Of a DNA stretch of 39,388 nt, positions 28,732 to 32,685 are shown piece by piece. The notes under the pieces are model-generated. The model searched no databases and was not told the DNA's origin. It saw only the letters and a program-made list of their open reading frames with translations. The position numbers were made by a program, and so were the translations under genes. Every line of letters starts with the position of its first letter. Positions within the stretch are counted from its first letter, which is position 1. The stretch is from Geobacteraceae bacterium (GTDB lineage Bacteria > Desulfobacterota > Desulfuromonadia > Geobacterales > Geobacteraceae): the NCBI GenBank assembly GCA_025356035.1, contig JANXYN010000178.1, forward strand, positions 1-39,388. The letters run 5' to 3'.

Positions 28732-30009
28732 TCAAAGCTTCGGAAAATCCAGCTGGGCCAGAAAGAGCTTCTCGAAGGCGGGGGTGCCGGAGAGGGGGAT
28801 AACCTGCAGCGACTGCGCCAGCTGCTCCACCGCCGCCATCCCCTTCGGTGCGCAGAGTGCTTTTTCCACCCCGGTCAAGGCCCCCTCCCGGATAAAGCGT
28901 GCTATTTTTACCATCTTTTCCGCAAAAATTCCAACGTTTTTTAGGCTGTGGGGGGCGAGTTCGGCGCCAAACGATCCGGTCAGCAGCACCTCCTGCAGAT
29001 CGACATGGCGAAGGCCAGCGCGTCCGAGAAGAATCTCGATGCCGGCTACAATGGCCCCCTTGGCCAATTGCACCTGGCGGATATCGTGCTGGGAGAGGTA
29101 TACCAGCCGCTCGGCATCGCGATACAGGACGAAAGCCGGCTCTCCAGCCACGGTCGTCAAGCGGTTCGCCAGATTGGAAGGGATTTCCGCTGGGGAAAGG
29201 AGCCGGCCGGTCTGGTCGATAACCCTGGCAACCAGCAGTTCGGCAACAGTATCAATCACGGCTGAGCCGCAGATCCCTGCCGGCGCAGCCCCGGCAATGG
29301 TAGTAAGAGTAACTTTCTCACCCTCAATCACCACCCTGCTGATCGCGCCGGGAAGGGCAGCCATTCCGCAGGCGAGGTTCCCCCCTTCCAGTGCCGGGCC
29401 GGCAGCAACCGAGGTGGCATAGAGTTTCCCCCCAGCTGCCAGGGCGATCTCACCGTTGGTGCCGATATCGAGAAAAAGCCGTGCGACGTGCGACGGGCGA
29501 CGGTCGGAAGCTGGTTCAGCCGAACTGCCATACAGAAACGCCACCAGGTCGCCGCCGACGAAACCGCCGGGGAGCGGGAAGATATAGAGCGGAATGTCGT
29601 CAGCCCAGCCGAGCTCGCGGGTGGTGATGCTCCTGCCGGTCTTGAACAGTGGCCGATAAGGCGGAAAGGCAAGGGATGTTACCGGCATCCCGAGCAGCAG
29701 ATGCTCCATGGCCGGATTGCCGGCCATGGCGAGCTGTGCCAGGTCGGCCATGGAAGCACCGGCATCGTGGAGGAGACCGGCAACCAGCCGCTGCAACTCG
29801 ACATTAATAAGCCGTTGCATGGACCGGAGGTTTTCCTCTGAGGCGGTTGCGGCCTGCAGCCGGGCTATCACATCGGCGCCGAACTGGCGCTGGGGATTCA
29901 GCCCGCCGGCAACGGACAACCTACGGCCTGTCGCCAGATCCACCAGCGAGGCTGCCACGGTGGTAGTGCCGATATCGACCGCAATCGCCAGCTTACGGGA
30001 CAATTTCAA
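28732..30009 (-). CDS. ASKHA-fold corrinoid-activation-type protein (RACo/RamA C-terminal-like)
   Basis: 425 aa from a TTG at 30009 (AGGAG 7 nt upstream); an ATG at 30063 is also in frame. ATPase motifs are [15 protein letters not shown] at the N-terminus and [13 protein letters not shown] in the middle, with a late TGSFGAEL. This is the reductive-activator module that uses ATP to reduce inactive Co(II) corrinoid proteins. The [2Fe-2S] ferredoxin-like domain usually fused in front is absent, so an external electron donor would be needed. It overlaps the 3' end of selD by 17 bp, suggesting coupled expression. The partner corrinoid protein (MetH or a methyltransferase) is not in the window. Confidence 0.75.
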
Positions 30010-31036
30010 TGGGGCGCTCCTGCTGTGGGAGGACCGTGCCGATAATGACTGCAAAACAGCCACGTTCAGCGGCAGCTAGCAAAAAACTGTCCGCAGCGGC
30101 TGGCGCCAGGGCTATCAGCAGCCCTCCGGAGGTCTGTGGATCGAAAAGCGGGAGGAGCTCATCGGCGGCATGATCAATCCCGGCTATCCCTGGCCCATAA
30201 AAGTCGCGGTTCCGGTAGCAGCCGGCAGGCACAAGCCCATCCCGAATCAGCCCGGCCAAGCCGGCCATCAGCGGCACCGCTGCCAAGTCAAGCCGGATGG
30301 TGACCCCCGCCCCCCGCGCCATCTCAGTGGCGTGGCCCACCAAGCCGAAGCCGGTCACGTCGGTACAGGCGCTGGCATGGTACTCCACCATCAGCTCGGC
30401 GGCAACGACATTCAACAAGGTCATCCAGCCGATCGCCTCGGCCACACTCGCAGCTGTCGCCATCTCCGCCTTGATGGCGGTGGAGATGATCCCGGTGCCG
30501 AGCGGCTTGGTAAGGATCAACCGATCGCCCGGGCGGGCCGTGGAGTTCCTGATGATCCGGTCCGGATCGATGGTGCCGGTAACCGCCAGGCCGTATTTCA
30601 GCTCGTCATCCTCGACGGTATGCCCCCCCACCAGACAGGCCCCCGCTTCCGTGATCTTGGCAAGTCCGCCGGCCAGAATCGCGCCCAGGGCCTCCAGCGG
30701 GAGCACGCAGACCGGGAAAAACACCAGGTTCATGGCGGTCAGCGGCTTTCCCCCCATGGCATAGACGTCGGAGAGGGCGTTAGCTGCAGCGATCTGGCCA
30801 AAGGTGAACGGGTCATCCACCAGCGGGGTGATGATGTCGGTAGTCTCCACCAGGGCGAGCCGCTCCCCGAGCCTATAGACCCCTGCATCATCCGCAGTTC
30901 CCGGCCCTACCAACAGTGCCGGGTCGGATGCCGGTGCAAGACCGGCCAAAGCTGATTCCAGGCCCGCCGGGCCCAGTTTTGCCGCTCAGCCGGCCGCCTT
31001 CACCATCGATGTCAGTTTGATCTTCTTGTTGGTCAT
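29993..31036 (-). CDS. selD: Selenide, water dikinase, selenocysteine-containing
   Basis: 347 aa when the in-frame TGA at 30986-30988 is read as selenocysteine (residue 17, context VKAAG-Sec-AAKLGP). This is the position of the catalytic Cys/Sec of SelD. Downstream are GTADDAG, the ATP-binding [30 protein letters not shown] region and [10 protein letters not shown]. The ATG at 31036 gives the usual N-terminus [17 protein letters not shown] conventional caller would start only at about 30949 and lose the active site. The enzyme makes selenophosphate for Sec-tRNA and tRNA modification. The ribosome site is weak. The 5' side is repeat B and alr. Confidence 0.95.
30959..30988 (-). promoter_or_regulatory. 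UGA selenocysteine codon and bacterial SECIS-like hairpin
   Basis: The TGA is followed after 12 nt by the stem GGCCC/GGGCC closing a GGC loop, about 17 nt from the UGA. A GG at the loop start and this distance fit bacterial SECIS elements read by SelB. Confidence 0.75.
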
Positions 31037-31064
31037 GGTTTACGGTTTTTCCCTTTTAGTCCAC

Positions 31065-31193
31065 CTTCACAGTTCGCGCTCAAAAATGCCCAGGTGCAAG
31101 GCGCCGAGGAGCGAGCAGCGGAGCATACGAATAGTATGTGAGCAGCGCGAGCTGTGAAGGCAACGCCGCAGATGGGCGTTTTTCAGCGCGAAC
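31065..31193. repeat. Dispersed palindromic repeat, copy B
   Basis: Arms 31072-31092 (GTTCGCGCTCAAAAATGCCC) and 31173-31193 are nearly complementary; the centre is CATACGAATAGTATG. Part of the left arm (31065-31080) can instead pair with 31144-31159 (15 of 16 positions). The right arm contains the alr stop codon (31183-31185). Confidence 0.85.
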
Positions 31194-32319
31194 CCACGTA
31201 TATTCTCGGTACCCGCTTGCTAATCCCGCAGAATATCTCGTACGGAATGGTGTCGGCCTTTTCCGCCAACTCCTCCGCATGGATGCAGTGCCCCTCCCGG
31301 TCACAGCCGAGCAGGGTCACCTCGTCACCCACGGCAACGCCGGGAATGCCGGTCACATCGAGCATGATCCAGTCCATGCAGACCGTACCGGAAACCTTGG
31401 CACGCTTTCCCCTAACGATCGCCTCCCCTTTGTTGGTGAGGGCACGGCTGTAGCCGTCGGCGTATCCCACCGGCACACTGGCCACCAGGGTCCGCTCCGC
31501 AGCGGTAAAGCGCCTGGCATAGCTGATGGTGGTCCCCGCCTCTACCCACTTCAGCATGGCGACCCGGCTCTTCAGCCGCATCACCGGGCGAAGATCGAGC
31601 TTCCCCTGGAAATCGGCGGAAGGAAGCGCCCCATAGAGGACGATGCCGGGGCGGACCATGTTGCAGAAAGGGAGTTCGCGGCTGAAGAGTGCCGCGCTGT
31701 TGGCCAGATGGATGTAACGCGGCTTGAAACCATGGCAGTGTGCCGCTGCCACTACCCCGGCAAAGTGCTCCGCTTGCCGGTCGGTAAAGCGGCGCCCCCC
31801 CTCGTCAAGCTCGTCGGCGGAAGCAAAATGGGAGATGATCCCCTCCAGCTCCAGGTTTTTGAACCCCTGCAACTCCTGAAAGAATGCGGCTGCCGACTCG
31901 TGGGGAATACCGAGCCGCCCCATGCCGGTATCGACCTTCAGATGGACCTTGGCCTTGCGGTAGAGACTGGCGGCAGACGCATCCAAGGCCCGTGCCTGTT
32001 CCAGGCTGAAAACCACCGTGGAAAGGTTGAAGCCGATACATTTACGCTCCTGGCCGGGATAGACGCCGCCGAGAATCAGCACTGGTCGGTCGATGCCACT
32101 TTTTCTCAGCTGTATTCCCTCCGCCAGGAAAGCCACGCCAAAGGCGGTCACGTCAAAGCTCTCCAGCTCCCGGGCAATATCCATAAAACCGTGCCCATAG
32201 GCATCGGCCTTGACCACCGCCAGGATGCCGGTCCCCTGGGGGATTGCCCTTTCCACCTCCTGGAAATTATGCCGCAGTGCCGCCAGGTCGATCTCTGCTA
32301 TGGTTGGACGACTGTCCAT
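31183..32319 (-). CDS. alr: Alanine racemase
   Basis: 378 aa. The PLP-binding lysine is in [11 protein letters not shown] (about residue 39), the substrate-channel Tyr region ISYARRF is near 265, and the C-terminal beta domain contains [12 protein letters not shown]. It interconverts L- and D-alanine for peptidoglycan. The last codons, up to the stop, lie in the outer arm of repeat B. GGAG lies 10 nt before the ATG. Divergent from the thi genes. Confidence 0.95.
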
Positions 32320-32419: not shown

Positions 32420-32436
32420 TACATCAATAATTCAGC

Positions 32437-32656
32437 CAGCTAGGGGAGTTCGCAAGAACTGAGATCCGCTGCCAGTGCTGGAAACGTCAATTTTTCGCCA
32501 AGCCCAAGGCGCGCAAGGGGATGCGAGGGGGCGTACTAAACGTACGCCGCACAAGCAGCCCCGCAGTGCAACGCCGGGATTGGCAAAAAAGTGGCGTTTC
32601 CCCGGCGAGGAAACCCTTTGTACCTGATCCGGTTCATCCCGGCGTAGGAAAGCGGC
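32437..32656 (+). promoter_or_regulatory. TPP riboswitch with an enlarged P3a arm
   Basis: Conserved thi-box parts are in order. P1 5' side GCT is at 32439-32441, P2 GGGG at 32443-32446, P3 is GTTC-GCAA-GAAC (32448-32459), and CTGAGA is at 32459-32464. After about 145 nt come CCCTTTGTACCTGAT (32614-32628), the P4/P5 hairpin CCGG...CCGG and GCGTAGGAAAGC (32642-32653). The consensus end is GCGTAGGGAAGC. The long insert between CTGAGA and CCC is the variable P3a region and holds repeat copy D. A terminator at 32686-32714 serves as expression platform for thiE-thiD and probably thiC. Confidence 0.92.
32480..32601. repeat. Dispersed palindromic repeat, copy D, inside the TPP riboswitch
   Basis: Arms GGAAACGTCAATTTTTCGCC and the complementary end near GGCAAAAAAGTGGCGTTTCC enclose CAAGGCGCG..., the palindromic centre GGCGTACTAAACGTACGCC and GCAACGCCG. 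This is the same pattern as copies A-C. Confidence 0.85.
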
Positions 32657-32685
32657 ACCGCGTCCATTGCAGAATATCTCCAAGG

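Follow-up and report, generated by a model that had tools for sequence, protein, structure and literature searches.

The selD gene of a Geobacteraceae bacterium (GenBank assembly GCA_025356035.1, contig JANXYN010000178.1) carries a TGA triplet within its reading frame, which raises the question of whether this codon is read as selenocysteine (Sec), or whether it reflects a damaged gene, a later start of translation or readthrough of another kind. We analyzed the stretch of 39,388 nucleotides that contains the gene (hereafter, the window), together with the genome from which it comes and a broad set of relatives. A UGA at the catalytic column, a conserved hairpin and a full Sec gene set are present by sequence, and the window selD almost certainly encodes a selenophosphate synthetase of the standard Sec-containing type found in the Geobacter group. 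The coordinates of the features are collected in Table 1.

Table 1 Features of the selD locus, in positions of the window
Feature	Position	Strand	Remarks
selD, selenide water dikinase	29993..31036	(-)	347 codons + TAA, one UGA read through
In-frame UGA, codon 17	30986..30988	(-)	Predicted selenocysteine, catalytic position
Codon 20, Lys of the G-U/C-x-x-K motif	30977..30979	(-)	Aligned with Lys of GCxxK in 3u0o and 2yye; Lys in 80/80 related loci
Bacterial SECIS hairpin (predicted)	30958..30976	(-)	8-bp stem, GGC triloop 30966-30968
RACo/AcsV-like ASKHA gene, no matched ferredoxin domain	28732..30009	(-)	Probable TTG start 30009 inside selD
alr, alanine racemase, upstream neighbour	31183..32319	(-)	TIGR00492, 366 bits

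The in-frame UGA and the catalytic column of SelD

The selD frame, which runs from the ATG at 31036 to the TAA at 29993 on the minus strand, is open apart from a single UGA, and this codon lies exactly where the preliminary description of this DNA had placed it. The product matched the selD model TIGR00476 with 376.3 bits (cut-off 125) and contained both AIR-synthase domains, AIRS and AIRS_C, as expected of a member of the SelD family. In a genome-wide search, this gene was the sole selD match above the cut-off and was recorded with one TGA inside; no second selD above the cut-off was found in this genome, which is 99.77% complete and comprises 227 contigs.

To place codon 17 within the enzyme, we aligned the product with SelD chains of known structure. 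With phmmer, residue 17 fell on Cys17 of PDB entry 3u0o (a 254-bit match), which we take to be E. coli SelD, the database entry naming selenide, water dikinase only, as well as on the Cys within the GCAAK motif in 2yye, presumably the SelD of Aquifex aeolicus. Residues 16-20, GUAAK, aligned with the loop of the catalytic Cys/Sec and Lys in both chains, and the assignment of the UGA to the catalytic Cys/Sec site, likewise made beforehand, is borne out by the correspondence with Cys17 of the E. coli enzyme. According to the accessible text of PMC3956282, Cys17 of SelD binds selenide and the C17S mutant is catalytically inactive.

Conservation of the codon was assessed in the best 80 of 382 named-genome candidates encoding a relative. 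The codon-17 column was TGA in 79 of these loci and TGT in one (Lacrimispora), and both the LT motif and the G-U/C-x-x-K motif were found in all 80. The in-frame UGA is conserved across relatives and aligned with Cys in homologues. In a class-wide search, 181 of 195 genomes had a selD match above the cut-off. Among the matches listed, most contained one TGA and at least 24 had none (23 without any stop, one with a TAG), and every one of the 24 fetched sequences that lacked TGA at the catalytic position had TGC or TGT there. The TAG, found in one relative (L117, G182:C142), was considered as a recoded Sec codon and rejected, given that it lies 47 codons past the catalytic position, itself TGC; it is probably a nonsense change or an assembly error in a Cys-SelD gene.

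Translation might instead begin past the UGA, at the TTG of codon 30 or 42, in which case the Cys/Sec loop would be absent from the protein and the UGA would stay untranslated. In-frame starts beyond the UGA are available at codons 30 and 42 (TTG) and 63 and 73 (GTG), with the first ATG at codon 94, and a plain, mechanical ORF finder does yield a 318-aa form of selD from the TTG at 30949 (codon 30). However, the residues flanking the UGA are conserved as protein, as the motifs shared by all 80 loci attest, and a downstream start would forfeit both the catalytic Cys/Sec and the Lys, which makes this reading highly improbable.

The same start codons bear on the earlier claim that automatic annotation would begin some 40 codons late and miss the UGA. 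A start at codon 30 would be 29 codons late and one at codon 42 would be 41 codons late, and the claim holds for naive callers, as exemplified by the ORF finder that starts at codon 30. It does not hold in general: among 167 RefSeq plasmid records with a match, of which three Sec forms and a Cys form from Vescimonas were examined, the Sec-SelD of Pusillibacter, Peptoclostridium and Terrisporobacter was annotated through the UGA in three of three cases. In gene models that do take the UGA as a stop, the catalytic residue is lost.

The hairpin after codon 17

The 24-nt stretch AAACTGGGCCCGGCGGGCCTGGAA downstream of the UGA was predicted to fold, at -12.9 kcal/mol, into a hairpin with stem arms at 30976-30969 and 30965-30958 and a GGC loop at 30968-30966. 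The outermost pair starts 9 nt past the UGA and the G-C core 12 nt past it; the previously reported distance of 12 nt for a SECIS-like hairpin is therefore a fair one. A bacterial SECIS (bSECIS) prediction had been proposed as a check. As given in the Fig. 2 legend of PMC13188914, the bSECIS model comprises an apical loop of 3-9 nt on an upper stem of 4-16 bp, a G at loop position one or two, 16-37 nt from the UGA to the apical loop, and a minimum free energy of at most -7.5 kcal/mol. The hairpin agrees with all four constraints, since its 3-nt loop and 8-bp stem are within the size limits, the GGC loop supplies the G, the UGA-to-loop spacing is 17 nt and the folding energy is below the limit.

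Taken alone, the window hairpin was unremarkable against dinucleotide shuffles of this single GC-rich sequence (z -0.33 and -0.75) and showed a modest excess against synonymous shuffles (P = 0.024 for the number of pairs and 0.034 for the energy). Neither an Rfam scan of the whole window nor a permissive one restricted to 30850-31080 returned a SECIS family, the matches there being at chance level only. Given that the dinucleotide-shuffle fold of one sequence is uninformative, the weight is carried by comparative tests.

We quantified synonymous diversity in 54 Geobacter-group loci and the window (55 sequences). The mean fourfold-site entropy of codons 21-26 was 0.60 bits compared with 1.39 elsewhere, the lowest among 161 such intervals in the gene, with a Mann-Whitney P of 1.5e-4 that is indicative only, the sequences being related. 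Furthermore, synonymous shuffling, with codons redrawn from each gene's own usage, was applied to 85 distinct Sec genes and 25 Cys genes. The Sec genes formed 7.09 of the 8 pairs where 5.36 were expected, with a hairpin energy of -10.0 versus an expected -6.6 kcal/mol, whereas no hairpin excess was detected in the Cys genes (3.64 pairs versus 3.82 expected; -3.1 versus -3.5 kcal/mol). The excess was individually significant at P < 0.05 in 32 of the 85 Sec genes and in 1 of the 25 Cys genes, a contrast that does not lie at the RNA level alone, because the amino acids near the site also differ in the Cys-SelD controls.

Covariation within the 85 Sec genes pinpointed one position in the stem. Pair 17:25, a central pair, was formed in 82 of them, variously as CG, TA, GC, AT or TG, compared with a maximum of 66 in 500 column shuffles. 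For pair 12:30 the excess over the shuffles was only marginal (66 versus a maximum of 65), and the remaining six stem pairs gave no covariation signal in this test. Three loci (L074, L086 and L093) keep the UGA, yet their stem is broken in this register. In L074 and L086, a shifted stem that pairs CCGCC with GGCGG was seen by eye.

These results also weigh on the possibility that selD is a pseudogene or that its TGA is an error, a TGC or TGT having been mutated or misread. Only a single UGA codon is involved, at a site that is Cys in other lineages, and the class-wide matches without TGA, with their TGC or TGT, lend this idea some substance. Against it, independent assemblies agree on the TGA in 79 of 80 related loci, a constrained hairpin follows the UGA and the remaining frame is intact over 347 codons, leaving the pseudogene or error a very slight chance.

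Selenocysteine genes of the genome and Cys-SelD in relatives

A search of the same assembly for Sec genes recovered the tRNA-Sec gene selC (76.6 bits, gathering score 47; anticodon TCA by ARAGORN), selB (376 bits, cut-off 242), selA (610 bits, cut-off 268) and mnmH (346 bits, cut-off 220). With selA, selB and selC all present, the lack of Sec machinery that the preliminary description had named as the ground for abandoning its proposal is not what we observed. In addition, a gene for a formate dehydrogenase alpha chain on another contig (L133, G000:C11), which scored below its family cut-off, has one in-frame TGA in the context ...DNQARVUHGPTVASLAPTFGRG..., and the UGA within ARVUHGPTVASL presumably corresponds to the Sec site classically found in FdnG-type enzymes. 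This alpha chain is a second likely selenoprotein of the genome; the HesB-like selenoprotein model TIGR01911 gave no match in it.

UGA readthrough occurs in general, and near-cognate suppression could insert Trp or another amino acid in place of Sec, but the non-UGA forms in the sequences examined were always Cys and never Trp, and the genome has the complete Sec machinery, so that suppression is left with next to no chance. UGA very probably stands for selenocysteine in this genome. Collectively, the conservation of the UGA, the hairpin with its covarying pair and the presence of selA, selB and selC support the idea that SelD is a selenoprotein. SelB carrying Sec-tRNA(Sec) would bind the hairpin just past codon 17, and the ribosome would read the selD UGA as selenocysteine. 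Sec17 and Lys20 would then belong to the active-site loop, which would capture selenide as ATP is split to form selenophosphate; this product would be passed on to SelA for Sec synthesis and to MnmH for 2-selenouridine in tRNA. We infer the actual insertion of Sec into SelD, and likewise the chemistry of the loop, from these sequence features. The selenium-activating enzyme would thereby depend on its own product, a circularity of SelD that is already in print in the accessible part of PMC1794560.

Relatives with Cys-SelD were placed in a quick tree of 110 rows, which carried long-branch warnings. Twenty Cys-SelD genes (L098-L117) from family f2, 19 of them in genus g11 and one in g21 (genomes G168, G146 and others), formed one clade with a support of 98, apart from the Geobacter-group Sec-SelD clade (support 100), which includes Sec-SelD genes of g11 itself. 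A tRNA-Sec above the gathering score was detected in 13 of the 20 Cys-SelD genomes and in each of the five g11 genomes with Sec-SelD that we searched. In g11 and g21, it looks as though the gene was replaced by transfer rather than changed at the codon in place, as far as a quick tree can suggest. One genome (G150) had two tRNA-Sec matches above the gathering score, on C28 and C50.

Neighbouring genes and comparison with known SelD proteins

The gene downstream of selD, which resembles corrinoid activators of the RACo/AcsV type, matched the Pfam families Raco_middle and RACo_C_ter, that is, the middle and C-terminal domains only. Its longest ORF starts with a GTG at 30063 (28732-30063, minus strand); its DIGTTT motif lies directly after the selD stop, and a start at TTG 30009 gives a 17-nt overlap with selD. 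The RACo-like gene probably starts at this TTG, inside the 3' end of selD. Counted by hand from the locus table, 36 of 54 Geobacter-group loci have a RACo-like homologue no more than 100 nt from the end of selD and 3 have one farther off; none was found in the other 15, several of which sit on contigs that stop shortly past selD, and none was found beside selD in 26 more distant loci. The RACo-like gene is a neighbour and not part of the UGA recoding. It is conceivable, although we consider it unlikely, that the UGA in selD also serves as a selenium-gated switch for this ASKHA activator, with its translation coupled to Sec insertion. If so, when selenium is scarce, ribosomes would halt at codon 17 and fail to reach the RACo-like gene.

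On the other side of selD, an imperfect palindrome, about 120 nt long (31064-31195), lies between alr and selD and has 10 more matches in the genome, several of them more than 90% identical. Further upstream, a TPP riboswitch match precedes thiE/thiD (32430-32680, plus strand; 37.5 bits, gathering cut-off 54.3); its central part looks expanded by a further palindromic repeat, and, judged by eye, the actual 5' half may begin around 32440.

Compared with SelD proteins of known structure, the window enzyme shares its catalytic column with E. coli SelD (3u0o), where Cys17 stands in for Sec and recoding is not needed. The Aquifex aeolicus SelD (2yye, 2zod and 2zau) belongs to the same family by sequence, with GCAAK at the Sec column; the 2yye chain has Cys at the position where the window gene has its UGA, whereas the native A. 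aeolicus gene, we presume, encodes Sec. Among bacterial selenoproteins, SelD is one of the two that occur most widely.

In the portions of the literature consulted, SelD is described as a selenoprotein in many organisms (PMC12013277), and Sec is encoded by 19% of the SelD genes detected in a reference set, always at the same position (PMC4561486). The accessible text of the latter study also gives a Sec-containing NifS-SelD fusion in Geobacter sp. FRC-32 as the single exception of its kind; that fusion is a Sec-SelD of the same lineage, whereas the window gene is unfused. Three related genomes of one family (G035, G172 and G125) also appear to carry Sec-SelD fused to a NifS-like cysteine desulfurase (L127, L128 and L129), the NifS identity being judged by eye, and each of them has a separate Sec-SelD listed besides the fusion.

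Table 3 of a 2006 paper (PMC1794560) includes SelD among the selenoproteins of G. sulfurreducens, G. metallireducens and G. uraniireducens/G. uraniumreducens. Because SelD is so widespread a selenoprotein and is listed for these three Geobacter species, its identification as a selenoprotein here is supported but not new, and by itself raises no new question. The Sec-SelD of the window is an ordinary, already known instance of an enzyme long described in close relatives: the SelD of the three Geobacter species is of the same enzyme family and the same lineage and is likewise given as a selenoprotein, and at the level of that listing no substantive difference was found.
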